From assembly GCA_963920765.1 (NCBI GenBank), contig OY987242.1, positions 33,752,002-33,816,001 on the forward strand: a stretch of 64,000 nt of DNA. The letters run 5' to 3'. Position numbers and translations under genes: made by a program. Of the stretch, positions 17,777 to 49,500 are shown piece after piece; the first letter of the stretch is position 1, and each line of letters opens with the position of its first letter. The notes under the pieces are model-generated. The model did no database searches. It saw only the letters and a program-made list of their open reading frames with translations, and was not told the DNA's origin. Origin of the DNA: Ulota crispa. Lineage: Eukaryota > Streptophyta > Bryopsida > Orthotrichales > Orthotrichaceae.

Positions 17777-18084
17777 TATGGTAATTTGTATAGATCATTG
17801 GATCTATTTTAGAGGTAATTGTTAATTAAGCACGCTTTTGTAAATTTTGGGTTGTCTATTGGGTTTGCTAAAGTAGATCATCTTGTAACTAATAGTTTAA
17901 AAATAATTAGAACTTTTGCATCAAAGAAGAACATTGCATTTGGTTTAAAAACAAAGATGGAAACTCACTCTAAGAAAATTAGTTGAAGGATAGAATTACT
18001 TGAGTTTGGACACAAGTAAACAATGAACCTATCAACTTTTCAATTGTTAACTTCTAGAAGTGCATGCATTAGTTTAAGTATTTT
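17777..18084. other. AT-rich stretch without recognised features
   Basis: Nothing recognised between the Stowaway-like element and the left arm of the foldback. Confidence 0.35.
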
Positions 18085-18455
18085 AGGATATAAATATGTG
18101 TTGTAAAGTGCAATTTGGGAAGAATATTTGGTGCAGGCTTTCAAACAATAGTGGAAAGCATAATCTATCAACCATATACTTTACATTAGATCTTCAAAGC
18201 TATGAATGTTTATCCAAGCATGAATCTAGAAATTCAAGTTTTGTACAAACTTTGATTTTAGTTGGAGTAGAAGTGACTAGATGGAATATTAGTGAAACAT
18301 GCTTGTACTCTTTGGTGTGGACAATATTTGCAACAAAGATATTAGAAACTTTGGTTTGGGCAAAAAAAACCAAGATAAAACAAATTTCATTATACTTCCA
18401 TCCTAGTATTCACCTAAAACCATCCTTATTTGTATTGTATTATGTCTTTATTTAA

Positions 18456-18679
18456 CCCCTAAACGTCACAAAAACCCTTTGCGGCCGTATGTATGGGTTT
18501 AGGTAAAGACGTATTTGAGGTGCTCCGAGGGCTTTCCAATTTTTTTAATGCACCCACCATCATACAACCCTTCAATATGTATGGTTGTAATACTTAATTT
18601 CTAGCTGATTCAAACTTCTAAATATTGGTTGCGACTGTATTTGGTACCATAGCTCCAGAGCCAAAGGACCCTTTAAAGA
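18456..18679 (+). mobile_element. TTAA-type (piggyBac-like) MITE inside the foldback left arm
   Basis: It is flanked by TTAA at 18452-18455 and 18680-18683. The ends are CCCCTAAACGTC and a degraded GACCCTTTAAAGA. The paired right arm has a single TTAA at the equivalent place (near 21408), so this is an insertion with a duplicated TTAA. Confidence 0.8.
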
Positions 18680-19495
18680 TTAACGAATGCACCATTTTTG
18701 GAAATTTAGTGGTTTTTACAATTTGAAGATATTACAGCATCATTTCAACCCTAAAATGAACCATCATCTAATTTGTGAATGATGACCATATTGCTACAGA
18801 ATAGCATTGCAATCATATTCTACAAAGCATAGCAAAACCACAATCTTGCAACTTGGTTTTGCCTTTTTGTTATTAGCTAAGTTTGCACTAAAAAAGAAAG
18901 GAGGTGTGGTGTATATTCATAGTTAAGGTTAAATCAATGAACCACAATATTTCATTGATGCAATTCCCAAGACAAAAAGAGAAAAATCCAATGGTGAAAA
19001 AATGCTCAATTTTTCCTATTAACTTGGATGAACATTAGTTCCAACCAACTAAGTTTGAACATCCTTCAATAATTACTTGGAAATAGTGATTTTTGAGAAA
19101 ACTTCTTTCAACAAGATCAAACTGGTTATTCATTTTGGATTATGAAGCTGCAAATGTGAAATTTGATAACAATGGAAATCTCTTAAAAAAATGGAGTCAA
19201 CAAAATTGGGTTTTCAAAATAAAAAGTATATTTCCTTTTATGCAAACATTGTGTTTTTGGGTGAGGTTGGATGGCATACCATTTTGTGGAACTAGGGTGG
19301 AAAATCTTGCCTTTTTAACTCACCAAATAATGTAAGAACGTGGATATTTACTATTGGGAAATTGAAGTTGGAAGCTTTTAATTGGTCAGGGCTGACAACA
19401 TTGTTCCACGAAGGGCACCCAAGTTTACCTTAGGGTAGAGTAAAAATGGTGGTTTCTAAATAAAGCAGTTCTCAAAAGTGTAATATCATAGGAGA

Positions 19496-20054
19496 ATTTA
19501 TATATGCACACCCGGGGTTTGACATATGCACACCTAGGGTTTGACGTATGCACACCTAGGGTTTGACATATGCACACCTAGGGTTTGACGTATGCACACC
19601 TTGACGTATGCACACCTAGGGTTTGACGTATGCACACCTAGGGTTTGACGTATGCACACCCGGGGTTTGATGTATGCACACCAAGGGGTGAATTTTTAGT
19701 TTTTTATCATCTGCAAGTGGAATTTGGAAATCTTGAATTTAGATTTGGATTTAGAGGCCTTGATTTTGTCTATAGTTACAACTGAGGTTACCATTGAACA
19801 ACACCTAGCGGAAAAGCTTAGTGTTTTCACAAACAAGGGTAAAAGTAATAATTTTGCCCCTTTGCTAGGATTTTCCACTAATTCATGTTCAATAATAACC
19901 TCATATGTAGTTCTAGACTAAATCCAGGTCTCTAAATCCAAATCTAAATTCAAAATTTCCAAATTTCACTTGTAAATGATAAAAAAACAAAAATTTACCC
20001 CCCTATGGGTGTGCACATATCAAACCTTGGATGTGCTCATATCAGTTCCCTATT
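19496..20054 (+). mobile_element. MITE, family A (GTGCACAC / TGATATGTGC-type ends), at the foldback centre
   Basis: An inner palindrome pairs 19700-19760 with 19918-19990 (for example TTTGGAAATCTTGAATTTAG and its complement). The outer ends are rich in TATGCACACC and GGTGTGCACATATCA. The same architecture is found at 51409-51863. The left end has expanded into a 22-base minisatellite. Confidence 0.7.
19507..19690 (+). repeat. 22-base minisatellite (CACACCTAGGGTTTGACGTATG-type), about 8 copies
   Basis: Units alternate CACACCTAGGGTTTGACG and TTTGACATATG-type variants, with one shortened unit (about 19595-19610). The unit matches the terminal sequence of the MITE that contains it. Confidence 0.9.
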
Positions 20055-21764
20055 ATAATGTGGTTATACATATAAGTTTTTTTAAAACTCAAAAATTTTA
20101 GACAATGCAAAAAATGGAATTTTGATATTCAAGAGAATTGAGTCTATCTATATTATAAAGCCTATAGCATATGTTTGTCATGTGATATAATTTTTTTATT
20201 ATTATCACAAGTTCTTGTGAGGAGAAGGGAAAGGGAGAGGAAAAGGCACCCTAAGAGAAGGTGAAAAGTCATTGAAACTTTTTTTTTGAAATTCTCATTT
20301 ACAAGCTTGAATTCTTCTATTATAAAAGCATTGGGTGTCAATCATTGGGTGTCAAGCATTGGGTGTCTACGAGACATTCAAATTTTAAAATTTAAAGGGG
20401 AGGGAGAGGAAAAGGAAGGAAAAGAGAGCATGAAAAGTCACCTCAAGTGTTACAAGGAAATTAAGAGTGGCTAAACAAGAAGAGCATGCAAGCCATACTT
20501 GTGTTGTATAAATATTGCATTTATATCTTTTTCATAGATTGTCAAAGTGAGAAAGCGTAGGCTAGTATTAGATAGCATGCCATTTTGCATGGTCAAGGTG
20601 GTAAATCTTTCCATTTTCTCACAAAAAAGAGGAAAATTAATAATTTACCCCCTTTGTTAGAGTTGGTCAAAATTTTCCTCTTTTGCAAGTCTAGACTCTC
20701 AAATCTAAATGTGAATTCAAAACTCCCAAATCCAATCTCCCAATAGTAAATATCTATAGTCTTACATTATTTGGTGGGTGAAAAAGGTGAGATTTTCCAC
20801 CCTAGTTCCACAAATGACATGCCATCTAACCTCAACTAGAAACACAATGTTCACATAGAAAGGAAATATACTTATTATTTTGAAAACCCAATTTTGTTGA
20901 CTCCATTTTTTTTATGATATTTCCATTCTTATCAAATTTCACATTTGCAGCTCTATGATCCAAAACAAATAATGAGTTTGTTCTTGTTGGAAGAATTATA
21001 CTAAAATTCATTGTTTCAAAGTAGTAATTTAAAAATGTTCAAGCTTAGTTGGTTGGAACTAATGTTCATCCAAATTAAAAGGAAAAATTGAGCATTTTTT
21101 CACCATTAAATTTTTTCTCTTTGTCTTGGAAATTGCGTCAATAAAGTATTGTGATTCATTGATTTCACCTAAACCTTGAATGTACACCAAACCTACTTTC
21201 TCTTCCATTGCAAACCAGCTAACAAGGCAAAACCAAGTTGCAAGAGTGTGGTTTTGCAATGACTAGCAGAAAATGATTGCAATGCTATTTTGTAAAAATA
21301 TGATGATCATTCACACATTGGATGATGGTTCTCTTCAGGGACGAAATAATGCTATAATGTCTTCAAACTGTAAAAGCCACTAAAACTCCAAAAATGGTAC
21401 ATTCATTAAGTAAGACACGATACACATAAGGGTGGTTTCAGGTGAACATTAAGATGGAAGTACAATAAATTTTGTTATTCTTGAATCGTTTTTTTGGTCC
21501 AAACCAAAGTTTCTAATACCGTTGTTGCAAATATTGTCCACACCAAAGCGTACAAGCATGTTTCACTAATATTCCATCTAGTCACTTCTACTCCAACTAA
21601 ACTCAAAATTTGTACAAAACTTGAATTTCTAGATTCATGTTTAGATAAACATTCATAGCTTTGAAGATCTAACGTAATGTATATGGTTGATAAAATATGC
21701 TTTCTACCATTGTTTGAAAGCCTGCACTAAATTTTCTTCCCAAATTGTACTTTACAACACATAA

Positions 21765-23301
21765 TTACATCCTAGACAATTTACTGGCTGTCCTGGGGTT
21801 CTGGGGTACACCACTTAGTTGTTGCTGTTGACGTTGTTGCTGGAGCTGTTGCTGCTGCTGCTGCTGCTGCTGAAGCTGCTGTTGAGCTTGGTTTCCCGAC
21901 AGAACTCCGTTACCCAAAGTTTGAGCAGGATTTCGCATCGCCATAGCAGCTGCAGAATGAAACAAATCAACACCTCCAAATTAAGGCCATGGCACAGTAC
22001 AGATCTCTTCCCATATAGTGGATCCACCTAAGCAAAAAAATTCACCTACTTCATTCGTTGCGTATGTATAAACAGTCTTCACGACGTAAATCCAGAGGAA
22101 TTCATTTTCATACAAACGCAATCTTACGGATTGCTAAAATCTGCACCTATGTTGTACTTTCACAATGATAGACTTCGGTGAAAGAAAGCGCCCTAAAGAA
22201 ACCCACACCAAGTCCCCTACAAACAAGAACAACTCCCGCTTGAAAGACATCCAAATTTCACCCTACAGCACAAACTTCTACAACATCTGCCATGTCCGCA
22301 AACTCGTAACTCCAGGCAGCCACAACCAACCTGGGTCTACTTGCTTCATTGCCGCTTGCGGTACTGCTTGTGCTCCAGGTGGATGCCTGTTTTGGAGCGG
22401 ATTCCCGTTGGCCTTGGTCTCAAGTGACAACATCTTCAGCGAGATCTTTCGGAGATAATCTTGCTATAAAACCATGCCCCATGCAATATGTCAATCACGT
22501 GCCCGTACTCAGCTGACCTTTGTCAACAAGGATCCAATGAAACATAGAGATCATATAAAGTGGAAGCACGCACTCTGGGTCCTTCCAGAGAAATAGCGGT
22601 CTAACAAGTACCACACTCTTACAATCAAACAAAACAATTGGATTGTTCAAAAGCAAAGACTTACTTGATCAGTTGCAGCCTGAAAGATTTTCTCTTCAAA
22701 CCTCCATGCAATCTTCAGAAGTTCGTCCACGCCATCCTGTCCAGCAACTGGCATGTGGCGCTGCAAAGTGTCCATGCTGCAACCCAAAAGAGTAGCCCTA
22801 AGCAAGGTACTCGTGTGCAATTATATCCACTTTTCAGTTCTGTAACCATTTTTCCACGACTAACCAGACGGCCAAATCCCAAGCACGACCTGAGAGGATA
22901 TCGCATAGCTTCCAACGCTGCTTCAAAGGGATTTACACACACACACAAAGCATGCAGGAAACACAAGCGTACAGACACCTCACAGACCAAGATCATAAGT
23001 ACTACTCTGCGAGTAGCTCATAATGTCTTTCCATTTAACAAAGTCTCAAGCTCCAGATGTCTTTGCAACTCGTGAAGTTACTGACTCAGGATGCACCACA
23101 GCAACATTTTTCACACGAGACTTCGAAGACTGGCAGCAGCCACTGAAACCAATGAGTTGTAACAATAGCAAGAACCTGGGCTTACTGGTGAAGGAACCAT
23201 ATATGAGAAACTTGAGGGCAAGAAATATTCAAAACTTACATTCTTTTCACTATTTTTTGTCGAGAATCGTGCGCCAAGGACGCACGCCAAGAATTATCCA
23301 T
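21765..23301 (-). CDS. Truncated inverted MED15 paralogue encoding a KIX-domain-only protein of 163 aa
   Basis: The exons on the minus strand are 23301-23240, 22776-22665, 22463-22331 and 21949-21765. They correspond to MED15 exons 1-4, with every splice site kept. The product is the KIX domain (about residues 1-85), a linker, and a short poly-Q stretch. In exon 4 an in-frame deletion removes about 27 codons. The frame then continues to GVPQNP and ends in foldback sequence that supplies the stop. In exons 1-3 I count five differences from MED15, all synonymous. The upstream region is duplicated too but carries three insertions (23909-24150, 24209-24489 and 24710-25077), so expression is uncertain. 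A KIX-only protein could compete with Mediator for activators; that is inference. It may be a pseudogene. Confidence 0.5.
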
Positions 23302-23908
23302 CTTGATCTGGATCTCGGTGACCGAATTTTTTGCCAACTTAAAAGTTGCTCCTGTCGTATTAACTTCACCAAACGCAGTCAGCTGAGCATAACAAGACCA
23401 TAAAATATCAGTTCGAGACAAGTTCAGCGACCAAACTTCCGCCATAGCTAAGGAGCTTTGAAGCAGCATCCATCACCAGGCTCATGAAACACCATTTCGG
23501 ATTCCTCCACATTTGCATAAACCGCTGTGCGCACATAATACACATATAATTTGAAACATCTATCGTCATTTCCAAGGCAAAAGGTTCACTACCATGGCAA
23601 GCCTCCTACGTTACAACCCTAATTCCATGTTTTGCGATAATGTCTGTACGGTAATTCAGCCCGCTTACACAAGCTCCCCGGTGGATCGAGAGCGTCGGAA
23701 GAGAATTAAGCAAGCACCTCGCCGACGAAAAACGAACACTTACACACTCAAACGCCTACGATACATCACCTCGAGAATGACACCGAAACCCCAACACAGC
23801 ATATCCTAACATTTCCAAAAAGAAATGCCAAACATCGGAACTAGTCCGAGGACCTCGAGGACAACAAAAACTAAAAGAACATGAGTATAATATTCACTAC
23901 CTGCTTAA

Positions 23909-24150
23909 CCCCTTAGCGCCCAGACTTGAACCCAACAAAAACCTTATCTACTTGCAATCAAGTGCCCTCTGTGGACTAAAAATTACAATCTACAAAACTG
24001 GACCAAACAAATTGTTAGTAGAAAGCATCTCCATCATGATGGCTTGATTGTAGGTGGTTTGATCAAAGAAGCAATGAGAATACAGCAGTCAAACATGCGT
24101 TGACACAGCTTTTGGAGAGACAGTGTAGAATGTTTCTTAGGCGCTCAGGG
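23909..24150 (-). mobile_element. TTAA-type (piggyBac-like) MITE in copy A of the MED15 duplication
   Basis: It is flanked by TTAA (23905-23908) and GTAA (24151-24154). The ends are CCCCTTAGCGCC and GGCGCTCAGGGG. Copy B has TCAA and no insert at the equivalent place (near 32109), so this copy inserted after the duplication or was lost cleanly from B. Confidence 0.85.
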
Positions 24151-24208
24151 GTAACTATGCACACCGTTCCACCGAATTCTAGCAATACACCAACATCATA
24201 ATTTCTCT

Positions 24209-24489
24209 AAGGTAGGAAGAAGGCTCTAATTCGGAACCGATTCTAAAATGGAGCACCTCCTCAAATGTACTCTATTTGTTTGTACATGTTGTTTTTCATA
24301 ACCCTTGAATAATGTACATTTAGTATACATTTGAGAAGGTGCTCCATTATAGAGCCCTATGACCTTTCCACTTCAAAACTTCAGAACTAATTCCACAAAG
24401 TTCCAAAAAATATGAAACAACTTGAGTTAGATGCTAATTGTTCTTGTCTTTCAAGGTTGAAAATTTACTGAAAAATACTTACACAAATC
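24209..24489 (-). mobile_element. MITE, family B, in copy A of the MED15 duplication
   Basis: It starts AAGGTAGGAAGAAGGCTC and contains TAAAATGGAGCACCTCCTCA, typical of family B. The right end is degraded. The sequence is absent from the equivalent place in copy B (near 32060). Confidence 0.75.
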
Positions 24490-24709
24490 TGCGCTGAAGA
24501 ATTCCGCTGTCTCACTCGTCCCTTCGCAAGCACGACGTGTCTCCTCCAAAGCAATCTTCTAAGTTAACCCTAGCTCCTTCCCCTCCCTCTGAAAGGCCAC
24601 CGAAACCCGCTCCACAAGGTCTCCACTCCAATTTCCCAACTGAAGTGCATTTATAGCAACCCTGGTGTCTACGGACTCCCTGGTCCTGAATGCCTGTAGT
24701 CTGTACCGC

Positions 24710-28389: not shown

Positions 28390-29199
28390 AGATCAAGATT
28401 TATATAGCAGCCTTTTTGCCAGGATGGACTGAGAATGCTCTCAACAGCAGCACAAAACCAAAACTCAAGACAGAAAAAGAACAAAAAGAACAAAACTATA
28501 TTATAGCAAAGATTGTGTAAAATATTGTAGAGAGAGTCAAGAATGTCGCTTAAGAAGCTACAGGCATGCATGGCAATGCAATGTGGTGGTGATGGGCAAA
28601 AGCCAAGTGACATTTGTGAGCGCATCTACAAAACCACAACAACTCCGGGACAACAACGATGAGAGAGGTTAGGGACAACAATGATGGGGTTTGAGGGTGG
28701 GGGACAATGACGAGGGGATCTGAGGGGATCTAGAACAACAACAAGATCCAAGATGATGACAAGATCGAGGACAACAACAACAGGGTCAGGGCTGACGACA
28801 CTGTCTCATAAAAGGCACCCAAGTTTACCTTAGGATAGAGTAAATATGGTGATTTCTAAGGCAAAAGTTTTCAAGAGTGTAATATCATAAAATTAAATGA
28901 CTCAAAGCTTTTACAACTATAAATAAATCTAAATAACCAATTTCAAATTTTTTAAATTTTTTTAAATGTAATTTTAAAAAATTGAGATGCCTGGCCTTTT
29001 TGACAAACAAAGAAAATGACATATCTTGCAATAACTTTTGAACCATGTAGATTTTTTTTTGAAAATTGTTGAACCTTGAAGCTCTTCCTTGGGAAAGTCA
29101 TGTGTGAAAATTTCAAAGAAAAAAAATGAAAAATTGTCTTGTGGTAAGATGTCCAAATCGCTATGTTGCCAAAAAACACTATTGGGGCCTTTAGGGGTT
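28390..29199. repeat. Mixed repeat sequence, including a unit shared with 19388-19490 and, in reverse, 30859-31024
   Basis: The phrase GGCACCCAAGTTTACCTTAG (28816) recurs at 19417 and, in reverse, near 30880. A CAA/GAT-rich low-complexity run (28632-28780) corresponds to the reverse of 30935-31010. The right edge GGCCTTTAGGGGTTAA (29188-29203) is a TTAA-type element end whose left partner I could not place. Confidence 0.5.
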
Positions 29200-30110
29200 A
29201 AACTACTACTTTGAAACAATGATTTTAAGAAGAATTCTTCCAACAAGAGTAAACTAATTATTCATTTTGGATCATAAAGCTGCATATGTGAAATTTGACA
29301 AGAATGGAAATCTCATAAAAAATGGATAAAAAGTATATTTCCTTTTATGTAAACATAATGTTCTTGGGTGAGGTTAGATGGTTTGCCATTTTGTGGAACT
29401 AGCACAAGAACTAGCATGGAAAATCTCACCGTTTTTCACCTACCAAATGATGTAAGACTATAGATATTTACAATCAGGATATTGAATTTTGGAGTTTTGA
29501 ATTTGGGAGTTTAGAATTCACATTTGAATTTAGAGATCCTAATTTAGTCTAGAACCACAAAAGAGGACAAACTTGACCAACTTCAACATAGGGGGCAAAT
29601 TTTATTTTTACCCTTTTCTAAACAAAAATAGTAAGATTTACCACCTTGACTTTGCAAAATGACTTGCCATTTTTTCTCACTTTGACAATTCATGAAAAAG
29701 ATAATAATGCAATAATCATAAAAAACAAGTATGTCTTGCAAGCGCTTCTTGTTTTTGCTCTCTTAATTTCCTTGTGACTTTTGAGGTGACTTTTCATGCT
29801 CTCTTTTCCTACCTTTTCCCTCTCCCTCCCCCTAAAATTTCAAATTTTGGATAACTCATAGACACCCAATGCTTTATAATAAGAATTTCTAGCTTGAAAA
29901 TGAGAATTTAGATAAAAGTTCCAATGACTCACCACCCTCCCTTTGGGTGTCTATTCCTCTCCCTTCTCCTTTTTATTAGAGCTTATATTGAGTTGATAGA
30001 AAACTATATTGCATGACCAACATGTACCAGAGGCTTTACAATATAGGTGGACTTAAGTTCACCAAAATACCAAAATTCCACATTGTATATTGTATAAAAT
30101 TTGTGAGTTT
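29200..30110 (+). repeat. Third copy of the foldback arm unit
   Basis: It is homologous to the reverse complement of about 20130-21040, for example CTACTTTGAAACAATGA at 29206 and AAGTATATTTCCTTTTATGT near 29330. It begins exactly at the TTAA where a TTAA-type element ends. Confidence 0.7.
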
Positions 30111-30116
30111 CATTAA

Positions 30117-30481
30117 CCCTTAAATGTCGGGCTGGTAACTGCAACCAGCCTAGCTACAGTAACTTCTACAATATCTCAAGATGTTTCATTGGTATGGCAA
30201 GTGCCCAGCTACTATAAAAGTCAACAGTACTCGCTGACCTCAAGAAAATTGCAAAATGGGCAGTATGGGACCTAAGACCATATCTATAAATCTTCTCACA
30301 ATTTGGATTACCTAAAAATATGAGTACATTTGATGAGGCTATTTTGTTTTATCTTCCATGATGCACCATATGTTTATGGTCATTTCTGCAAAAAAATCAA
30401 ATGAAAAATTGCTTTTCCTTGGTCGCTAGAAAGTTTTTTTAGAGCTAAAGGACAAAAAATGTCCTCCTTTGCGTTTAAGGG
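30117..30481 (+). mobile_element. TTAA-type (piggyBac-like) MITE, 365 bases
   Basis: It is flanked by TTAA at 30113-30116 and 30482-30485. The ends are CCCTTAAATGTC and GCGTTTAAGG-G. It is non-coding. Confidence 0.75.
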
Positions 30482-30539
30482 TTAAAAACTTATATGTACT
30501 ACCACACTATAACATTACACTGTTAAAGTCTTTTTGCCT

Positions 30540-30858
30540 TAGAAAGGTAGGAGCACCCATAAGCATCAGTTTAAGGGTTTTGAACATGATGAGTATTAAT
30601 AAACAGCTAGCAAATTATAGGATCCTACTAGGAACATAAAAATAATAAGTTTGCACTTTTGAATGTATTATTTGGATACTGTGAGAATAAGTTGTGAAAT
30701 TTTAAACAGCAAATTGCCATTGCACCCATAACCAACACTAAGGTTTCATGTTCACATGTTCTACATCCTTGTAATAACATCTATTCATTTCCACGGATTT
30801 TCCAAGATTTCAGAGGTGACGGTTATGGAGACACTAATGCTTATGGATGTTCTTACCT
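30540..30858 (+). mobile_element. MITE, family C
   Basis: It starts AAAGGTAGGAGCACCCATAA and ends TTATGGATGTTCTTACCT. The reverse complement matches 8226-8519. Confidence 0.7.
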
Positions 30859-31024
30859 AAAACCACCATTTTTACTCTATCCCGAGGTAAACTTGGGGTG
30901 CGCTTCGTGGGACAATGTTGTCAGCCCCGACCTCCCTTGTCGTTGCCAAGAGCGCCTTGTTGTCCACAACCCTTGTTGTCGTCGTCCCCAGGGTGTCGTG
31001 GTTTTGTACACGGGCTCACAATGT

Positions 31025-31438: not shown

Positions 31439-32719
31439 AGGCTTGTTCTCGTCACCACCTCGCGCATCGCGCGCTGCATTGCCACGCATGCCTGCAGCTT
31501 CTTCAGCTTAAGCGGCATTCCCGGCCTCTCTCTACAGTACTATACACAATCTCTGCTACAATTTAGTTTTGTTCTTTTTGTAATTTTGTGTTTTAATTTT
31601 GTGCTGCTGATGATGCGCGTCGCCGCACGCAGCCGGTGATGTCAGACTCAAAGCTGCAGTCTTCGCGTGCACGGCAGTGCCACTTTCAGTATCTTCCAGA
31701 CAACTACTCATCTCGCCCTTTTTCTTCGCCAGTAAAATTTGTCTGTGCAGTGCAGCAAAACTTACCACCACTTCGGCACAGACAAGTTCATATCTTTCGT
31801 GCCCGGATTGTCTATCGAGCGTGCAGATATTTGTGGCGGTACAGACATTCAGGACCAGGGAGTCAATAGACGCCGGGGTTGCTATAATTGCACTTTAGTT
31901 GAAAAATTGGAGTGGAGACCTTGTGGAGCAGGTTTCGTTGGCTTTTCAGAGGGAGGGGAAGGAGCTAGGGTTAGAAGATTGCTGTGGAGGAGACACGTCG
32001 TGCTTGCGGAGGGACGAATGAAACAGGGGAATTGACGGAAGCAGACAGCGGCGTAGAGAGATTATGCTGATGTGTTGCGAGAATTCGGTGGACGGTGTGC
32101 ATAGTTGAGCAGGTAGTGTATATTATACTCGCGTTCTTTCAGTTTTTGTTGTCCTCTAGATCCTCGGACTAGTTCCGATGTTTGGCATTTCTTTTTGAAA
32201 TGTTAGGATATGCTGTGTTAGGGTTTCGGTGTCATTCTCGAGGTGATGTATCGTAGGCGTATGAGTGTGTAAGTGTTCGTTTTTCGTCGGCGAGGTGCTT
32301 ACTTAATTCTCTTCCGACGCTCTCGATCCACCGGGGAGCTTGTGTAAGCGGGCTGAATTTGCGTACAGACATTATCGCAAAACATGGAATTAGGGTTTGA
32401 ATGTAGGAGGCTTGCCATGGTAGTGAACCTATTGCCTTGGAATGTTTCAAATTTGATGTGTTTGAGGTGAAATTATGTGCTCACAGCGGTTTATGCAAAT
32501 GTGGAGGAATCCGAAGTGGTGTTTCATGAGCCTGGTGATGGATGCTGCTTCAAAGCTCCTTAGCTATGGCGGAAGTTTGGTCTGTGAACTTGTCTCGAAC
32601 TGATATTTTATGGTCTTCCTTGTGTCTTGTTTTGCTCAGCTGACTGCGTTTGGTGAAGTAATACGACAGGAGCAATATTTAAGTTGACAAAAAATTGGAT
32701 CACCGAGACCTAGATCAAG
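31439..32719 (+). promoter_or_regulatory. MED15 upstream region and probable 5' leader (part of the duplicated segment, copy B)
   Basis: From about 31635 onward this is the uninterrupted counterpart of copy A. Similarity across a non-coding region of this length shows that the upstream DNA was duplicated together with the gene start. An in-frame TAG at 32711-32713 fixes the next ATG (32720) as the MED15 start in this exon. No clear TATA box was found. Confidence 0.45.
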
Positions 32720-35700
32720 ATGGATAATTCCTGGCGTGCGTCTTTGGCGCACGATTCTCGACAAAAAATAGTGAAAAGAATGTAAGTTTTGAAAGTTTTT
32801 GCCCTCAAGTTTCTCATATATGGTTCCTTCACCAGTAAGCCCAGGTTTTTGGTATTGTTACAACTTGTTGGTTTTAATAACTGTTGCCCGGCTTCGAAGT
32901 CTCCTGTGAACAATGTTGCTGTGGTGCATCCTGAGTCAGTAACTTCACGAGCTGCAAAAGCATCTGGAGCTTGGAAAAGACATCATGAGCTACTCGCAGA
33001 GTAGTAAATATGATCTTGGTCTGAGAGGTGTCTGTACGCTTGTGTTTCCTGCATGCTTTGTGTGTGTGTGTAAATCCCTTTGAAGCAGCGTTGGAAGCGA
33101 TGCGATATCCTCTCAGGTCGTGCTTGGGATTTGGCCGCCTGGCTAGTCGTGGAAAAACGATTACAAAACTAAAAAGTGGATATAATTGCACACGAGTACC
33201 TTGCTTAGGGCTACTCTTTTGGGTTGCAGCATGGACACTTTGCAGCGCCACATGCCAGTTGCAGGACAGGATGGCGTGGACGAACTTCTGAAGATTGCAT
33301 GGAGGTTTGAAGAGAAAATCTTTCAGGCTGCAACTGATCAAGTAAGTCTTTGCTTTCCAACAATGCAATTGTTCTGTTTGATGGCAAAGAGTTTGGTAAT
33401 TGTTAGACCGCTATTTCTCTGGAAGGACCCAGAGTGCGTGCTTCCACTTTATATGATCTCTATGTTTCATTGGATCCTTGTTGACAAAGGTCAGCTGAGT
33501 ACGGGCACGTGATTGACATATTGCATGGGGCATGGTTTTATAGCAAGATTATCTCCGAAAGATCTCGCTGAAGATGTTGTCACTTGAGACCAAGGCCAAC
33601 GGGAATCCGCTCCAAAACAGGCATCCACCTGGAGCACAAGCAGTACCGCAGGCAGCAATGAAGCAAGTAGACCCAGGTTGGTTGTGGCTGCCTGGAGTTA
33701 CGAGTTTGCGGACATGGCAGATGTTGTAGAAGTTTGTGCTGTAGGGTGAAATTTGGATGTCTTTCAAGCGGGAGTTGTTCTTGTTTGTAGGGGACTTGGT
33801 GTGGGTTTCTTTAGGGCGCTTTCTTTCACCGAAGTCTATCATTGTGAAAGTACAACATAGGTGCAGATTTTAGCAATCCGTAAGATTGCGTTTGTATGAA
33901 AATGAATTCCTCTGGATTTACGTCGTGAAGACTGTTTATACATACGCAACGAATGAAGTAGGTGAATTTTTTTGCTTAGGTGGATCCACTATATGGGAAG
34001 AGATCTGTACTGTGCCATGGCCTTAATTTGGAGGTGTTGATTTGTTTCATTCTGCAGCTGCTATGGCGATGCGAAATCCTGCTCAAACTTTGGGTAACGG
34101 AGTTCTGTCGGGAAACCAAGCTCAACAGCAGCTTCAGCAGCAGCAGCAGCAGCAGCAACAGCTCCAGCAACAACGTCAACAGCAACAACTATTGGCACAG
34201 GCTCTCCAGGGTAATGGAGCTGGTGGCATTCCAACCCCAGCCACTGGGTTGGGTCCCAATTTGTCCGCAATTGCTGGTGTACCCCAAAACCCCATGACAG
34301 CCATGGCTGGTCAGGTCATTAATCCAGCAATGATGACCAACCGTTTACAGCAGATGCAGCAGCAACAGCAGCGTCAACAACAGCAAGCAGTTCAGCAACA
34401 GCAACAACAACAGCAGCATCAGCAGCAGCAGCAGCAGCAGCAGCAACAGCAGGTATATACATTGCAGAGCTATAACTCTTGTTTTAGGCCTCGGTTACTG
34501 GCATGTGTTTGACCGTGCGCAGGTAGTACTTTCTGCAAGTTGCTATCGTGCTTGGTTTCTTATGTTGTCCAATGTGAATATATATCTCTAATTAACTCGA
34601 ATATATTTCTAATCAATGCGAACAGTTTGCTCTTGATGCGAGTGATTCTATCTTTTGCAAAACTGGTGGTTTTCAGGATGTCACGAAGCTTTGGAAACTT
34701 GATCTTTAACCCGAGGTCCTATGATGGTTGGTTGAAGCAGAACAGTCAACAACAGCAATTGCTATATCAGCAGCAGCAGCAGCAGCAACAGCAGCAGAGA
34801 TTGCAACAACATCAAGCGCAAACGCTTCTGAAGCAGAAAATGCAACAACAGCAGCAACAACAACAGCAACAGTCACTTCTCCAGCACCAACAGCAGCAGT
34901 CTTTGCAACAACAACAGGTGTAAAATTCACAACAATATGACTTAAATACTACTTTGGGTCAAATTTCATCAGAATATCATGTTTAACAAAATCTCATATG
35001 TATACTTATAACGTGAGTAATGTGGGTGGAACCGTGGAAGGTCTCGCTGGTCCCGTCTAAAGCGCTTGTACTGCCTAACAGGTTTTGAACGTCTGTGTCT
35101 TACCAACGAAAAACAGATAAAGTATAATTTTAGTTTATTCATAAAAAACAATCGCCGTTTCCAAATCCCGTTTGTAACTAGCGTTTGGAAGAGGAAATTT
35201 TGTGTAGTCTCTTTGAAGCCTGGGGTCGTTGTCTATTTTGTGTTGGAAAACTTCAAAGCTGACGCTATATACGAGACTGTCCCTGCCACATAAGTAGCTA
35301 TTTATACAGAGGTTTCTGAATCGATAATAGCTCTTTGGACCCGTTACAACTATATTTCATTTGTTTTACTATCATTTGCGACTTGGGATCCTCTGGTGCA
35401 AGAGGACGAAGCAGATTTAAGGGTGTTGATTTGCCTCTGAATTTCAAGTGATACTTATTATGCATAACAAATCTGGAACAGGTTTCTGGTTTGCAGCAAC
35501 AGCAACCTGTCAACCAGCTTTTGGGCCAAAACAATGCGATGGGCCAAAACAACGCAATGGGCCAAAACAACGCAATGGGCCAAAACAACGCAATGGGCCA
35601 AAACAACGCAATGGGCCAAAACAACGCAATGGGCCAAAACAACGCAATGGGCCAAAACAACGCGATGGGCCAAAACAATGTGATAGGCCAAAGCAATGTC

Positions 35701-38700
35701 ATGGGCCAGAGCAATGGCATGGGCCAGAGCAATGCTATCGGTCAAAGCAACGCAATGGGTCAAAACAATGCAGCACTACAGCAGCAGCAGCAGCAGCAAC
35801 TGATGCAACAACAGCTTCTGCAACAAACCAAACAACTACAAGTCCAGCAGCACCAAGTGAGTAAATTAATTGGTTTTTTCATTCATTGATGCTTGGATAG
35901 TAAAGAGTGGATGTGGATATAGTGAGAACTAGCATTACAGAACTGAGGCTTAAATGGTTTCGTTGTTCCACTAATATTTCGTCACTTCCACAGCAGCAGC
36001 AGCAACAACAGCAACAAAATCAGCAGCAACAGCAGCAGCAGCCTACAGCTACACCGACTCAATCACAACAATCGCAGCAATCCCAGCCTATTGTGCAGCA
36101 GCCTGTTCAACCGCAATCTGGATCAAACCAACAATCTCAGCAGCGTATTGGACAGCCAGGTATGTTAAATTTCCTTTCGAGTTTTCGGTTTTCTTGCTAA
36201 CGTTAGGGATGCTCTCAAGTTCCTCGTCATTTTTCATTTCCTTTCTTCTTCATTGATTATATTTGGGCAATAAATCTAGTTTTGGTAATGTCAGTGTGAA
36301 AAAATTGATGCCTTCTTCGAAATATCTAATCGATTTTTTCTAATCTTTGGTTTGCAAAATGACGACCTTATAATAAATTGGCTCTCATTGTCACGTTTTT
36401 CGAAAATACAGGATTTCGTTTAAAACCAATGGAGTCACGAAATATCGTAGTATGTGAATTCAACATCTATATGAGTGTGAATATTGCTCTTGACAAATGA
36501 AGCAGAAATCTGTCAACACAAAACGATCCTAAATGTGGCAACCTTTCATAGCACACCTCATTACCCGTATTTCTGCAATCAACATAAGTTAAAATCTAAA
36601 TGCGGCGGCCTTTAATGCGCTTCTCCTTTACCGCACTTCTTCAACGATGATGTGTTGGGGGGTAAAAGAGGGGGTATTTTTGATTTGCAAAATGTAGACT
36701 TGCAGTACTTTTCATTTTCTCTCGGAGCGCCCGTAGACCTCAAAATATAACCTATAGAACATGTAGATATTTTTAAATCAAGTTCAACGTGCGATAGCAG
36801 CCTCGCTGTACTATGAACGGTTAAGTCCTGTATTTTATTGAAATCAGGGAATTTTTTTGACTGTAATTGATATTGAAGAGGAAGTGTGATAGTGTTGTAA
36901 ATGAACGCCAAGCCGTTCTACCAAGTGCATTAGTTGCCTATTGTAATATCAGGGAAGATCCCAGGATTTTTATATCTTTGCAGTGTTTTATTTTAACTTG
37001 TTTTTGCTTGAAATGTGTTTATGTACTAAAAAATGAGATCATACTTCGGCGATGAATGCAGGAGGTTTGCTGCAACAGCAACAGCAGCAGCAGAACATCC
37101 TACTTCAGGCTCAACAACAGCGTGCTGTTCCTGAGCCTTCAACAGGTATGACTTCATTCTATTTGTGAGGTATCAAAATATGTGTATGTCCAGCTCCTTT
37201 ATGATTGTGGCCTTGATGCCAGACATCTCCTGGTTTAATTAAGTACGCTGAAATTTGGTCTTCTAGTGTCTTTTTTCTTTCGTATCGTGGACCGCCGATG
37301 GTTCCGTGTAATGAACCTGCGTTTTCTTGTTTTGTATGTGCAAGTTTTTTGTGTAAGGGCTTTCTGTTAGCAATCTTTGGTGGATGCTAGGTGATGCTAT
37401 TATATATGCTTTGATATGGTTGTATACTGACTAGCAACTGGTTTTAATGTCAACAGCATCTGTTGAGTCGTCAGCCCATTCTGGACCAACCGGCGCTGCT
37501 GCAGGCAATGTGGACCAACGCGAACTTGTGTGGACTAAGGTGCACATTGGTTCATCTAATTTGTATAGCCTTTGCGAGTTTGAATTGTTTTGAGAGCCTA
37601 TCAATGGATCCAACAGCACTATGTATTCAACATGCTTGGTTTGGTTGCACAGCTTCAACTTTTGAAGGACAAATACCTGCAAGACATGAATGAGCTGTAT
37701 GGAATGCTTTCAAACCGCAGTACTCAGGTATGCTCATTATAAAAAGACAGCTTGCATGCTCATGGGACTCATGATTTTGAATTGGTGTTTTTGAATTCCA
37801 TTTGAATTGAGGGGGCATTTATAATGAAAGAGCCAGTGCTCTCTAGACTTCATAGTGCATAATTGATCTATTGTCATATTTCCTGGGGCCAAGCTTCTTT
37901 TTTTGATATCTGCTTGTCTGGAGACAACCAATGCAAATAAAATTCAGCTCTGTTGAAAAAATTATTGAACCACAACCTCGTTTCATCTTTACCCTACGCA
38001 GGCTTGTGCTTTGTTGAATTTATTACTGATTTAGGCTGTGTATCCTTTTGGCAGCCTATGCCTGCCGAGCAATTACAGAAGCTGAGGCATTACAAGGATG
38101 TCCTTCAGCGGATGATTCCATACCTGCGTGTCCCGAGAGACAGAGTACCAAAAGAGTTCAATCAAGATAAAGTGGATGCTTTTGAGAAGCAGATTGTGAA
38201 TATCATGGAGACTTTTAAGAAGAGGCGGCAACCACAAGCGGCGGCCCCTGGTGGCCCTGCTGCCCCAAACCAGCCTCCTCTAGCACCACAGGCCCCAGCA
38301 CAGCCAGCGCAGCCTCCACCCGTCCAACAACCTGACCAAGTCAGTATGGCTGGTGGTTTAGTACAAGCACCACAACAACCACCAGCTCAAATGGTAATAT
38401 ACAACTTGTGCATTTCGTTGAAATTATTGTGTTCAACCTCTGTAGAAAGCATAAAGAAGATCATTAACCCCTAAAGGCCCAGCTGTCCCCTCGGGGGACA
38501 AATGGATTTCAGGCACGTACCTGTAGCTAATCTAGTTTTTGTATTTTTTTTAAACTTTTATTGAAGGTGGGGAATTTCAAGACCTACGCGGGCATCTAAT
38601 TTTTTCCTCATTTTGACATTTGACAAAGAAGTTATGCAAGAATTTCTGCTACCCGGGGGAGGGAGGGCAATCCGGGCAATGCAAAAACTTTTTAAAAATT

Positions 38701-41700
38701 TGTATTTTCTAAAAATAGAAATCTGAAATTGGCTTTTTAGATTCTTTTAGATTCTTTCATATGTGGGAAGCTTTGAATCATTCAACTTCAATCAATGAGA
38801 TGAAAGTTATGAGATGTTTTAGTTTGTGGGCAATTATGGATTCTCTACTCTAAAATAAACTTTGAAGTCCTTTATTTTCCACAATTTTCAATATTTTGGA
38901 AAAAAATCTAAACCTAAAGAAGTAGATTGTATATTACAACATTATAGCCATTGGGATTTGCATTTTTCATTTTAATAATTAAATTCTTAACAATTTAGTG
39001 ATTTGACTCATTCTCTACTTCTTTTTACTTACTATTTTCCCCCATGTGTTGTATAGTTCCAATTGATTTGAAAATTCTCCTTCACATACCTAACTTGGTC
39101 TTCTACATGGAAAAAATAGACCTCAACTTTGTGTAGAGTAATTTTTTTCATGCAAGAGTGGCCAAAGGCTTCTAAAATTTACTAGAAACAAAGAAAGAAA
39201 CCTTTTCCCTTCACCTCAAATGTAAATATCTCCCTCCTCTCCATCTAGAATGACTTGATTTTTTCCCACAAGTACCTCTTCTAATCTAAGGCAAGATCCT
39301 ATGGTTGGATTTGCAAAGCAAACTTTATTTCCTACTTTTCTACTTATTCCCCTCAAAGTGACAGTTAACTGTGACTTCACTGGAAAAAAGTGCTTGGGCC
39401 TTTAGGGGTTAAGTAGTTGTTTATATAGCCTATGGCTAACACAAGAGGGCCTCACCATTTCCTTGTCCTGGAATCATTTTCTTGTTCACCTGACTGACCT
39501 TAAATCTGGCCTTGAAGTATGGATATGCTTGACCGATTTTTGATCTGGTTCTATTTGGCAGCCACAGAATGGCCAGATACTTCAACAGGCCTCAAGCAAT
39601 AATCAGTCAGTGCAGCAGCAGAATCAACAGCAATTGCAGCAGCAGCAACAACAGCAGCAACAACAGCAGCAACAGCAACAACAGCAGCAACAGCAGCAAC
39701 AGCTGCTCTCACAGATGCAACAAGAAAAACAGGCTCAGATGAGCGGGGGAGTCTCACAAGCTGCAGGAACCATGCTGCAGCCCACAAATAATGCGTTGAC
39801 ATCACTACAGCACAACGCAGGAAACGTGCAGCAGACTCTTACTGGAGCCCCACTGCAAACAAATGTGATGCCTACATCACCAGCCATAGGAGCTGCAATG
39901 CCTACTAGCAGTACAGGGTCGATGGGTCAAAGTGGACTGGCTACCTTGCAATCAAATTCTGTGGTATGTGCTTTAACCCCTCCACGTACTGGTGATTTTT
40001 CTTCGTCTGACGGGTTAATGAAAGGGTCCGATTATTGCTCCTAAATAGACCTGACTTTCACATCTTCTTTGTAAGCATTTTGATTAATGGAGAAAAACTC
40101 TCATACAGAAGTGTAGATATAGCATTTCATTTTATGTATTTTTGCAATTCAGAATGCACCTGGCAATGTTTTGCAGCCCGGTATGAATCTGCCGCAGTCC
40201 AATGGAGTAAGTTCGCAGACTGGGGTAAACAACTATCAGCAAAATCCCAGCAACTCATTGCAGCAGAACGGGGCCACGATTCCGAACGGTACCAATGTCA
40301 CTTCGTTGCCAAGTCAGAATAACGCAATGCAGCAGCAGCAGATGTTGAAGCAACAACAAGAGCAGCAGCAGCAGCAGCTCTTGCAAGCTCAGCAAGCTCA
40401 ACAGCATCGATTGATGCAGCAGCAGGTTGGATTTTTTGCAGTCTTTTGGAAATTCTCCCGTGGGTACGATGTTTGGATCTAAGAATATTACCACGTCAAA
40501 TGTGATTTGAATAAACCAGTTTTTTGAGAATTAAGATTTTCAAATTGAAAGATGGAACTCTCCTGTGTAGAGCTAGTTGAGATTTATCAGGTATGTTCTG
40601 TGAAATTTATACAGGACTTGCAGCAGCGACAATTGCAGCAACAGCAACTGATTCAGCAACGGCAGATTCAGGCCAATCATCAGAAGAATCAGGCTGCTCA
40701 GCTGCAAGCGTTTCACGCACAGCAGGTCTGCAGTTTTTCCTTTTTCTCCTTTCATTTTCCCCTGAGGGTGTTAGCAGAGGTTCTATCATTAGAGCTTGAA
40801 ATGGCCCTGTAAAATTAAAACATATTCATTAATTGAAGCTATAACTGTAAATAGAAAAACTAACAAAGCTAAAAATATAGAGGCAAACAAAATAGAAAAT
40901 AACCGATTATATAGTAAGCACTCCTTTCTCTCAAAAGGATTCATGGCAAGGGCCAACTTGATCCTCTTCCCCAGGGATTTTAGATGAGATATAACCCTTG
41001 GAGAGCCGGTATTAGCACAATGGCTTTCAACTTCAAATTGAAAAAGAGAGGCTAAACCCGAACGAAAATTAATTAATTAATTAATCTAGCTAGCTAATAT
41101 TAAGAGAAAAGTTACTTTAAAATGACTTCTCTCTAAAAATTAACTATTTGCGATACATAAAATATTCTGCGAAAGCAGCTCCTAATGTAACAGTAAAAGA
41201 AAGACGGTTTTTTTTTCCTTCCTTGGTATTTCAAAGTAAAGATTAAAAAATAATTTTTATTTTCTATATATATTATTGTTTAAAAATAGTTAAATTATTA
41301 ATTACTGCAGAAACCGATTATGAATCAGCTTTGTCCTCGAAGAAGGAAGCTCCATACTTTCTCAATTTATGGTGTGATTATCTTCTTACGTCGGTTTCTT
41401 TTTTTTGCTCTTGCAGCAACAGCAAATGTTAGACCCGTATACAGACTCGAAGACGGATGCCTCTCTGAAGGCTAAGCAAGCAGCCGTCAAGCAGGTGCTT
41501 TTCTATACAAATAGTTTTATCTGACGGACGGGTGTAGATGTAAGTTGTGTTTGTAGCTCAAATATTGCAGACTAGCACTCGTTACATTTAAGTATTGTTG
41601 GTACATGAGATCGTCTCTTTGTTGATGTGTTTGGCGGTAACAGGACTTGAATGACGTGGCACATTATGTTCCAGTAAAGAACCGTGCTGGTTTTTAACCA

Positions 41701-41772
41701 GAAAAAAAGCTCTTGATATCCAGGCAATGCAGCAGCACAATATCAAGCAGCGTCAATTGTTTCAACAGCAAA

Positions 41773-41805
<33 letters not shown>

Positions 41806-44384
41806 CTCTCAAAGTTGGGTCTCCACAGCTGGCCTCTTCTCCGCAGCTAATGCAAGCCCCGTCTCCACAGCTATCGCAGCAAATGTCACCTCAAACAGAT
41901 CAAACCTTTACTCCCATGCAAATACAAAAGGTGAGATTTGCTTCTCTGTTTACAGTTTGATGCCATTGTGCGAACTGTACTGGATCATTCAAACACCATG
42001 AAGTCTCAAATGTACTACTTTGAGGGTAGTCTGCTGAATAGGAAACAGTAGACAATTTCTATCTCGCAGTACTTTTGTGCGATCCAGGGCGAAGTTGACG
42101 GGGTTTTGTGCTTCTTTTTTGTGAACACTCAGACGAGCACTCCACCATTTCGGACACCATCTCCTTCAGCACTACCGGCCACACCTCCTACTACTACTCA
42201 AGATGAGGCAGCAGATCATAAGGGCCCTACACCACCCACAAATTTCATACCAACAGCTACTACTTTGCAGGCTTTGCAACCACATCCAAGTGGTGTGACA
42301 CGAGCAATCAACACTCCTGGCATGTCAGTGTCACCGCTCATGGATGCTGGCTTCTCTCCAAGTCCTGCCCAATTAGGGGTAGCACAGGATGCCGTTCAAG
42401 CCTTTTCTCCTGGGACACCACTCCTGGACAAGACTAACACAACTGAACCTCCTCTAGAACGGCTAAAGAGAAGGGTCCGGCTTCTACTCCCTTGACTATT
42501 TCAAGCTTTTATCAGTCCTCATCTTTTTTCTATTATTTGTGAAGAAGATGCATACTATTTTTTACACTTCAAAAAAAAAACTCATACGTTGGACGTTTTA
42601 CAGGTGGACACCATGCCGCCGGCATGCCTGAAAGCAGGTGTGGATGATATGAACGACATAGTAAGCTGCGCAGAGAAACTAGGAGCCTCTGCTCCAGGAA
42701 CTGGCTCTCGTGCTGCCATTGGAGAAGACCTTCCAGCCAAGACAAGATCGTTGCTCCAAGTCCGAGCTAACTCACAAGAGAGCAGTACTGCTCCAAAGAA
42801 GAGGCGGCACGTCGATTCTGTAGCGCTCAACATGATTTTTGCAGACGGGACGATTTCCAACACCCTGCACAGGCCTTACCAAACTCCAGGACATGTTATG
42901 GTCTCACATGTCAATAGCCCCCGTATTAAGGTTTCAGCTCATCTCTCTCTCTCCTCAATTGTGTATTGGAAATAAAAGATATGAAAGTGATATTGAGGTA
43001 TATTATATACCGCCTAGATCTCATGTTTTACATACTAGATCATGTAGGGACTACTAGGTTTGGTGTACAGCTCTTTGGTTTTCTAGCTACCTATGTTCTA
43101 TGGTGCTTTAGCTACTTCAAAGTCCATCGTCTTTAGACTAATTGAGTTCCCATAGAGTAACCTAATTCCAGCAATTGTGATTGTGTTCAATGGCCACAAG
43201 CGTTGATTTAGTGCTGATATGAAAATTGCTCTGGTCCTGAAGTTGTGTTTGCCTTGACATTCTCAGATCACATTGGCTTTGGAGGAGGAGATCAGGAATA
43301 TCAATAGCCGCTTGATTGATACTATTGTGGAAGTCAGCTCTGAAGCCACAGAAGAGGTCGCGGCAAGAGGCCAGAATGGCATCGTGCTCTCTTGCTGTTA
43401 CAAGGGCAACGCTTTGAGTCGAAACCTGTGCTTTCTTCAAGCCAAAGAGTATTCTATGGTAACTATTCTCTGGCCAGTTCTCAGTTGATCCTGTACTTCG
43501 ATTTTCTGTATGATGGTTTCTTAAGCTTAATTGATTTTTTTGCATCTGCGTATATTTAGTTGAAACAGCAGTCTTTCCACTACGGTTAGTTAGTTACCGA
43601 ATTGCCCTTTTTCTTGTTGGTTGCTGGAAGCATTTAGTGCAATGAAAAACTGAACGAAGCTCCCTTGCAAAATGACAGGTGTCCAGGGCTGTACTCTATC
43701 TGACAGTGCCACCTACCTATCCTGAAAGTTCTCCAGATATCTGGTTCGACCTATCAGCACCTCAATCATAGTAAGTATCATCAACTGTACAGTGTTTATT
43801 TCCTAAAGTCCCATTTGGGAAGCTAACTTGCAAAACAAGTTTATGTAGTCCAGATGGTAGGGCATGATTTTCTTCCCTCTGTTGTTACATTCTTATTACC
43901 TTGAAGCCTTCTAAACGACTTGTTTCAAATCTCACAGCTATAAAAAAAAATTATGTAATCAATATAAAAAGGGCACCTTAAGATTAGTCTCCAAATTAGG
44001 CTTTTTGTTTTTAACTCTCAGTAGCTAGCAGTCAAATCGGTTGACCTCACTGCCTGAACCGAATATAAAAAAACCTGTTATTTGGAAGCTCGCTGCTGTG
44101 TTTTGTTACCATGAAGTTTTTTAAATCAAATATCATGCCTGTTTTTTTTCATCTTGCGCTGACCAAAGGGGGCTCTGGATTTTGGCAGTCACTATTGTTT
44201 CAAGGGAGCCAAAGAGGATTTTGAGAGGAACGTCCGGTGCTTGCCGGCACCCTTGTCTCTGACCTCTGTTGCAACAAGCTGGGATGAATGTGCTCGTAAT
44301 TCCCTGAACGACTATGCCACTCAGCATGGTGGTGGCAATTTTGCCACAGCCATCGGTAGGTGGGAGACAGCCCTGGCTACCTGA
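32720..44384 (+). CDS. MED15: Mediator of RNA polymerase II transcription subunit 15 (plant MED15a type), 21 exons, 1406 aa
   Basis: It is a nuclear tail subunit of Mediator that links activators to RNA polymerase II. The exons are 32720-32781, 33230-33341, 33544-33676, 34058-34452, 34741-34917, 35482-35856, 35994-36159, 37062-37145, 37457-37539, 37653-37727, 38055-38393, 39562-39963, 40153-40425, 40615-40725, 41417-41494, 41724-41930, 42133-42474, 42604-42930, 43267-43458, 43679-43770 and 44189-44384. All phases agree. The N-terminus MDNSWRASL leads into the KIX domain (SRQKIV, DELLKIAWRFEEKIF, DYLRKISLKML; residues 1-85). Then come poly-Q tracts, an 18-base-encoded MGQNNA repeat (exon 6), a conserved middle block (LQLLKDKYLQDMNELY to LRHYKDVLQRMIPYL, about 530-600), a PKKRR nuclear signal (about 1202), and the conserved C-terminus ending SWDECARNSL...WETALAT. 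Arabidopsis MED15a is 1335 aa. Exon 6 could start at 35497 instead. Intron 11 carries a MITE. Confidence 0.95.
35515..35775 (+). repeat. 18-base coding minisatellite (MGQNNA repeat) in MED15 exon 6
   Basis: About 14 tandem units of GGGCCAAAACAACGCAAT encode the hexapeptide MGQNNA, with N-to-S and A-to-V/M/I/G variants in the later units. The first units are almost identical, which suggests recent expansion. The length keeps the frame. Confidence 0.95.
38468..39408 (+). mobile_element. TTAA-type (piggyBac-like) element of 941 bases in MED15 intron 11
   Basis: It is flanked by TTAA at 38464-38467 and 39409-39412. The ends CCCCTAAAGGCCCAG and CTTGGGCCTTTAGGGG are perfect or near-perfect inverted repeats. 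Part of the left half recurs in reverse at about 45500-45869. No transposase frame is present. Confidence 0.85.
39607..39720 (+). repeat. Longest CAG/CAA poly-glutamine tract of MED15 (exon 12)
   Basis: A mixed CAG and CAA run encodes more than 20 consecutive Gln. Similar shorter tracts occur at 34123-34190, 34345-34452, 34766-34917, 35778-35800, 35994-36040, 40326-40425 and 41760-41805. CAA interruptions are frequent, which should limit slippage. Confidence 0.9.
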
Positions 44385-47640: not shown

Positions 47641-48844
47641 AACTCGTGCATCGTCCCATCAATACAACAAGAGTAGAGGACTTGTATATAAATAATTACA
47701 CGGCATTTGGTCTTCATTTAGCTTGATGATCTTGAATGCCCAAGATATTAAATTTTGGTGATTTTTACACAAAAATTTGATGTCTTGGGTATTTAGGGAT
47801 TAAATGGATCAAACTAGATTAAATTAATACTTTACCAACTATAAAAAAAAATCATAAGTTCTTTACAAGAACATCATTTAAAAATAAAACTAAACAAAAA
47901 CTCTCATTACTTATACACTATTATTATTGGAAAATGAATCCTAAATCAACATTATTTTTGTTGATTTGGATGTATTGATCTGAAAGTTTGAAACAAGGTT
48001 GTGATGATTAGGACTTGCTTGTGTTAGTACCGCTTCATTTTGGATTCATTTTTGACCGATGTATTGAGGTGGATACCAAAAGAGGATTAGCTTTTACTTT
48101 TGATAACTCTCATGTTACCAATAATAAAACACAATATGGGATATCTCTCCCATACTGTTATCTCTTTTGAGACTTCATTCTTTATACTTTGCATTAAAAT
48201 TGACATAATGTATAAAATTTGTATGACTTCAATGGGATTGAGAAGAAAACAATCTAAGGTTTACTAGTGCCTTTTTAAGGTGAACCTTTATAAGAAAAAA
48301 TGCTTAGCTAAGATGAAGGAAATGACTGTCCCTAGCGGTAGGGGAGCTATAGAAGATGTGTTTGGTTACAATGAATGCTTTCCTTACATGAAATGAATAT
48401 GTTGTTCAAATACCTTCATCTTATTGAGGCACCACTGTAGTACGCTCATAAATAGTTTGCATATTTTGAACCATCTAGTAGCTTGTTTTGAAATGGTGCA
48501 TTGGTAGTTCTTACATTGGCCTCTTACAACTCATTGAATGCATGGAAGAAAAGGTGTTTTTAATTGCAAGAACCAAACATTCTCCTTGCTTCCCCAAATC
48601 TCTTCACATCTTTCAAGTGAATGGTTCTTGGAAGGTCTAAGGTTAATAATAGGTACCTATGACACATGCACTTTGAGAATTCATAAGTAACTCATAAATG
48701 CTTCTAAAAATATGAAACAACTTGTGTTGCATTTTGCATCTATTTCTTTTTGTTTGAAAAATGAACAAAAAATCCTCCTATCCACGGAGAACCATGAAAA
48801 AGAGGGATGAGCCCTTAGATGAGCGGTTTTCAAGCGTACTACCT
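47641..48844. other. Intergenic stretch
   Basis: No gene or clear repeat recognised. Confidence 0.35.
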
Positions 48845-49378
48845 TCCAAAAGAAAAAGATATGTAGAGGATCCAAAAGAAAAAGATATATAGAGGATCCA
48901 AAAGAAAAAGATATATAGAGGATCCAAAAGAAAAAGATACATAGAGGATCCAAAAGAAAAAGATATATAGAGGATCCAAAAGAAAAAGATATATAGAGGA
49001 TCCAAAAGAAAAAGATACATAGAGGATCCGAAAGAAAAAGATATATAGAGGATCTGAAAGAAAAAGATATATAGAAGATTTGAAAGAAAAAGATACATAG
49101 AGGATCCAAAAGAAAAAGATACATAGAGGATCCGAAAGAAAAAGATACATAGAGGATCCGAAAGAAAAAGATACATAGAGGATCCGAAAGAAAAAGATAT
49201 ATAGAAGATCCAAAAGAAAAAGATATATAGAAGATCCAAAAGAAAAAGATACATAGAGGATCCAAAAGAAAAAGATACATAGAGGATCCGAAAGAAAAAG
49301 ATATATAGAGTATCCAAAAGAAAAGGATACATAGAGGATCCAAAAGAAAAAGATATATAGAGGATCCAAAAGAAAAAG
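48845..49378. repeat. 26-base minisatellite, about 20 copies, open in all three minus-strand frames
   Basis: The unit is AGAGGATCCAAAAGAAAAAGATATAT with a few variants (ACAT for ATAT, CCGAAAG for CCAAAAG). Because 26 is not a multiple of three and the unit lacks stops on the minus strand, three overlapping frames of up to 265 codons stay open. Each repeats the same 26-residue peptide, rich in Phe, Ile, Leu and Ser. I regard these as fortuitous. Confidence 0.95.
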
Positions 49379-49500
49379 TTGGTGGAGCCGCCAAGAGTTG
49401 ATCCCGGGACCTGCTCGCACTGGTTTGCACGGAGGGCTGTACGTGCGAGCTAATCAGTAGAGGTCTTTTAAGCCACAACTCCGCTAATAGAGGACATATT
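49379..49500 (-). mobile_element. Possible tRNA-derived SINE head
   Basis: Read on the minus strand, TAGCGGAGTTGTGGCTT resembles a pol III A box. About 75 bases further on, GGTCCCGGGATCAACTC resembles a degenerate B box. The 26-base minisatellite follows directly. The match is loose and no cloverleaf was worked out. Confidence 0.3.

Follow-up and report, generated by a model that had tools for sequence, protein, structure and literature searches.

A truncated inverted copy of MED15 with an open KIX-domain frame, probably young and partly homogenised with its parent gene, in the moss Ulota crispa

Local duplication of MED15 and proteins consisting of little more than a KIX domain have both been described in plants. 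In Arabidopsis, four MED15 paralogues are clustered on chromosome 1 (PMC4584954), and AT1G15780 and AT1G15790 are both included among the KIX proteins (PMC5668377). Stand-alone KIX proteins are on record in KIXBASE (PMC5668377), and in wheat the full Med15 gene has been duplicated, with all six homologues being expressed (PMC7048732); the domain list of wheat Med15b.D in the latter source was used here as the reference for the parts of MED15 beyond KIX. Because these systems precede it in the available passages of the three sources, a local KIX-bearing MED15 duplicate is not a new kind of locus. The locus analyzed here, in which a truncated copy (copy A) lies near a longer one (copy B), resembles the Arabidopsis cluster in that MED15 paralogues adjoin a full gene and at least two neighbouring locus numbers carry KIX (PMC4584954, PMC5668377); it differs from the cluster, as known from those passages, in having a single inverted and truncated copy that is partly homogenised with the full gene. 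Like the stand-alone proteins of KIXBASE, copy A encodes KIX as its sole known domain, whereas those proteins are database predictions whose origin the available passages leave unspecified (PMC5668377), and copy A consists of 147 residues identical to its neighbour followed by a 16-residue tail.

Within the literature in reach, which held few subscription papers, neither this locus nor any KIX copy maintained by conversion was found. Searches on the MED15 KIX domain in Physcomitrella gave nothing, those on MED15 and moss gave no moss MED15 title among the matches listed, and those on a dominant-negative MED15 KIX domain in plants turned up only work on p300/CBP. Gene fragments that were duplicated without processing and have been homogenised by conversion between inverted repeats form a known class. 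Copy A shares with its members the kept introns, the truncated end and the mosaic identity, and differs in that its frame is still open.

The window, that is, the whole stretch of 64,000 nucleotides that was analyzed (C1:33752002-33816001), comes from a genome of 274.8 Mb in 157 contigs. This genome contains a clear match to the LEAFY SAM domain and 14 matches to the DYW deaminase, 11 of which span the full profile, numbers in keeping with a moss, as mosses possess about ten such deaminases. The two gene copies occupy the following positions:

23240..23301, minus strand: copy A exon 1 (ATG at 23301), 62 bp, 2 silent differences from copy B
22665..22776, minus strand: copy A exon 2, 112 bp, 1 silent difference from copy B
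22331..22463, minus strand: copy A exon 3, containing the end of the KIX domain, 133 bp, 2 silent differences from copy B
21765..21949, minus strand: copy A exon 4, truncated, stop included (TAA at 21767-21765), with an 81-bp in-frame deletion at 21815/21816
23302..23909, minus strand: upstream sequence of copy A, colinear with B 32104-32719, 608 bp, 5.0% substitutions (30/595) and 5 indels
24500..24698, minus strand: block further upstream of copy A, common to B 31840-32033, 88.9% identical
32720..32781, plus strand: copy B exon 1 (ATG at 32720)
33230..33341, plus strand: copy B exon 2
33544..33676, plus strand: copy B exon 3
34058..42975, plus strand: copy B exon 4 and the remainder of the gene, approximate, with glutamine-rich, MED15-like open frames judged by eye

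Copies A and B stand head to head as a colinear inverted homology that includes the introns; their alignment covers 2109 bases at 94.5% identity, which is far beyond chance. The first-pass annotation had described copy A as keeping its start codon, three introns and a continuous frame of 163 codons through the KIX domain, and the spliced translation of the four exons (163 residues) together with the alignment bears this out, as the alignment places GT-AG borders at all three introns. Up to the truncation, exons 1-4 of copy A contain no frameshift, premature stop or lost splice site of the kind that marks an unprocessed pseudogene. A processed (retroposed) pseudogene was rejected as well, given that copy A retains all three introns and upstream DNA. 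The same annotation had counted five exon differences between the copies. This number holds for the 441 coding bases before the deletion, where all five are synonymous; the deletion junction adds two further bases, and the 29-bp tail beyond it adds two more, one of which changes Met to Arg.

Truncation removes most of MED15 from copy A. Its homology to copy B stops at 21785, 1-2 bases short of a foldback repeat, and past B 34303 nothing but glutamine-repeat matches was found. The stop codon, as had been proposed, lies in neighbouring repeat DNA, namely the right arm of the foldback, where the frame ends after 163 codons; the part of MED15 that joins Mediator, which lies in its C-terminal region beyond the KIX and glutamine-rich regions, is missing from copy A. 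Copy B, judged by its length and N-terminal domain, is probably the full working MED15 gene; two of its later open frames gave no Pfam match, and these later frames are presumably MED15-like.

The protein predicted from copy A belongs to the Pfam family KIX_2 (PF16987), which it matches over residues 3-77 (profile positions 2-77 of 83) with 97.9 bits and an E-value of 3e-28, compared to a curated cut-off of 25.6 bits. A second profile, Med15_N, matches residues 1-79 with 25.2 bits, barely above its cut-off of 24.1. Moreover, residues 3-77 align without gaps to the KIX domain in a plant MED15a structure (9zjn chain C; E-value of 5.9e-26). When copy A was used as a DNA query against its own genome, 26 matches were obtained; the whole query was covered only by copy A itself and copy B, and the remaining 24 were short matches at the glutamine-repeat end. 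Searching the genome with the KIX_2 profile gave three matches, which are copy A, copy B and one match under the curated cut-off (C9:10694480-10694554, 20.7 bits, with one internal stop). A scan of viral contigs with the KIX protein resulted in four pattern matches and no relative.

The similarity between the two copies is strongly uneven, and one tract stands out:

21816..22607, minus strand: near-identical tract in copy A, 792 bp, 2 differences from B 33400-34191
33400..34191, plus strand: near-identical tract in copy B, counterpart of A 21816-22607

This tract runs from late intron 2 through exon 3 and intron 3 into the beginning of exon 4, and it ends at the 81-bp deletion (B 34191), which is in frame as the first-pass annotation had stated. 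Both of its differences lie in exon 3, 3 bp apart. Its non-coding part (B 33400 to 34057) shows 0 substitutions in 525 sites, compared to 68 in 1100 (6.2%) outside the tract and 30 in 448 (6.7%) in intron 1, and immediately before it, within 43 bp of intron 2 (B 33357-33399), there are eight substitutions and one indel. When the 68 substitutions were shuffled among the 1625 non-coding sites, the longest substitution-free run averaged 111 sites and reached at most 274, and the observed run of 525 was equalled in none of 20,000 shuffles. An identical block that gives way abruptly to diverged homologous DNA at its edges is what defines a conversion tract, although an assembly error would look alike. 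Recent gene conversion between the inverted copies is the most likely origin of the tract, a consensus error being less likely. An older paralogue under selection along its whole length was rejected for exons 3-4, as the parts of introns 2 and 3 inside the tract match between the copies just as closely as the exons do. The intactness of exons 3-4 says little about function because these exons lie in the recently homogenised tract. Of the earlier description as a KIX-only MED15 paralogue, the KIX-only frame and a KIX protein identical to that of copy B stand, while the intact exons 3-4 add nothing to it.

Repeats flank copy A on both sides:

23912..24151, strand not assigned: dispersed 240-bp repeat upstream of copy A, absent at copy B, with ends that resemble inverted repeats flanked by TTA
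24215..24495, strand not assigned: second dispersed repeat upstream of copy A, absent at copy B, 281 bp
18075..21783, strand not assigned: foldback repeat bordering copy A at its 3' end, its right arm giving the last codons and the stop

At least 40 matches to the 240-bp repeat were found (from 209 candidates, of which 40 were scored); one of them is the repeat itself, and the rest are 81-87% identical. Its ends with TTA resemble those of Tourist-like elements. For the 281-bp repeat, near-complete matches of 85-88% occur among the best 40 of 3662 candidates. Because these two dispersed repeats are present only in the upstream region of copy A, the duplication appears to be older than the identity of the tract suggests. 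The arms of the foldback lie at 18075-18370 and 21488-21783, and an arm used as a DNA query against the genome matched two places only, which are these two arms. Minisatellite-like repeats are found near the foldback center (19502-19687), almost no CpG remains in it, and its inner parts resemble 28784-30945.

As a background sample, ten 20-kb stretches of the genome were examined, two of which contain 200 N. Hairpin-like inverted repeats of at least 100 bp are present in nine of them. None of the ten contains a separated inverted pair of at least 500 bp at 94% identity or more (the closest has 290 bp and 94.1%), so the MED15 pair is unusual relative to this small sample.

The coding differences and the CpG content bear on whether copy A is under constraint. 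In a model with a neutral copy A, a fully constrained copy B and equal rates on the two branches, about 40% of differences are expected to be silent. The observation of five silent changes out of five before the deletion then has p = 0.0105 (0.003-0.014 across settings), for changes that are unpolarised and lie partly inside the tract. If the tail is counted too, at least six of seven are silent (p = 0.005-0.027, again for a neutral copy A and equal branches), and outside the tract the three changes in exons 1-2 are all silent, with p = 0.065 under the same model. Exons 1-2 show no amino-acid change compared to about 4.0 predicted if the A branch were neutral (P = 0.018), and for exon 1 alone the amino-acid change rate gives P = 0.24. 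Exon 2 belongs to a segment (B 33172-33356) that shows just one A/B difference and may itself have been converted. The tail speaks mildly against constraint, one of its two changes being missense.

The CpG observed/expected ratio is 0.72 in copy A and 0.66 in copy B, compared to 0.26 in the foldback and 0.29 and 0.37 in the two repeats upstream of copy A. Outside the tract, 42 of 46 CpGs are common to both copies (three were lost in A and one in B), and in the block further upstream five of eight are common. Among four control repeat pairs, for which numbers are small, no CpG is common to both members in three, and in the fourth two are kept and one is lost. In the B-to-A direction, C-to-T and G-to-A changes (19) do not exceed those in reverse (24). 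The CpG loss in copy A, set against the expectation for methylated DNA, gives P values of 0.42, 0.11 and 0.002 for assumed decay rates of 3, 5 and 10 times, respectively. A long-methylated dead copy was set aside on these grounds (no C-to-T excess, kept CpGs), a hint only that hangs on the assumed decay rate, and long methylation of copy A is thereby mildly disfavored. Together, the all-silent changes and retained CpGs suggest that copy A is not decaying; as evidence of constraint, they are suggestive only.

We consider it probable that copy A is a young partial inverted duplicate of MED15, whose KIX frame owes its survival mostly to a recent origin and partial recopying. The 5' end of MED15 (exons 1-3, the first part of exon 4 and the DNA upstream of them) has been duplicated segmentally in a head-to-head inverted arrangement, and the duplicate is cut off at the site of the foldback repeat. 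On this view, non-coding divergence between the two copies had reached about 6% when the 792-bp stretch became homogenised, most probably through conversion of one inverted copy by the other. Much of the intact look of copy A may thus come from recopying of full-gene DNA. The duplication, the truncation, the frame, the splice sites and the mosaic identity are directly shown, while we infer that conversion was the cause, in which direction it ran and that copy A lacks an established function. The second inverted pair of the window, in which a 99.4% identical core lies beside pieces of 88-92%, shows a like mosaic and is consistent with this explanation, whereas the five silent changes out of five, the unchanged amino acids of exons 1-2 and the kept CpGs count against it as hints of constraint.

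Those hints would be accounted for if copy A were an expressed gene, its short KIX protein being selected as a competitor or buffer for the activators that bind MED15, with conversion keeping the KIX surfaces matched. If transcribed, copy A would yield a 163-residue protein with the MED15 KIX surface and no Mediator-binding part. We regard such a gene as possible but rather doubtful. The intact start, splice sites and frame, the first 147 residues shared with copy B, the 608 bp retained upstream of the ATG, the low p values for silent changes under equal branches, and CpG ratios well above that of the adjoining foldback all point towards it. However, the silent changes, being unpolarised, would say nothing if they had occurred on the B branch, those outside the tract are just three, the deletion and the Met to Arg substitution both fall in the tail, and two repeats have been inserted upstream. 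A more specific version, in which copy A is a decoy refreshed by repeated conversion, kept identical to MED15 and competing for activators without Mediator, seems unlikely; if true, copy A would be unable to drift from its parent. If expressed, copy A would be a natural example of an activator-binding domain cut from Mediator that still equals the domain of its parent, and it would offer a simple system for asking whether free KIX domains dampen transcription. If copy A is not expressed, the locus would illustrate that an open frame in a young inverted duplicate can stem from conversion and is a weak sign of function.

That the near-identical 792 bp arose by error in assembly or polishing, with sequence of copy B copied into a copy A that may in truth be broken, appears quite improbable: near-identical repeats about 10 kb apart can mix in a consensus, and a single assembly is the sole basis of the analysis, but the tract retains two A/B differences, its flanks are cleanly resolved at 5-7%, and the window contains no N. 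Young plant microRNA genes can originate by inverted duplication, and the pair likewise offers long inverted arms from one gene that might feed small RNAs against MED15. We consider this very improbable, as the arms are about 8-11 kb apart and head to head, so that transcripts would diverge and both be sense. Compared to these alternatives, the young and partly recopied duplicate is the reading that we prefer.

Two further repeat structures were observed in the window. The second inverted pair lies at 54003-55180 and 62515-63695, with 99.4% identity over 1181 bp and about 7.4 kb between its arms; the 88-92% pieces adjoin its outer end, and one more weak match to it is present elsewhere in the genome. 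An open frame of 854 codons (54866-57430, minus strand), for which Pfam gave no match, has one of its ends within this pair. In addition, a tandem array with a 26-bp unit and about 20 shifted copies in register was detected at 48741-49494, where several minus-strand frames are open.
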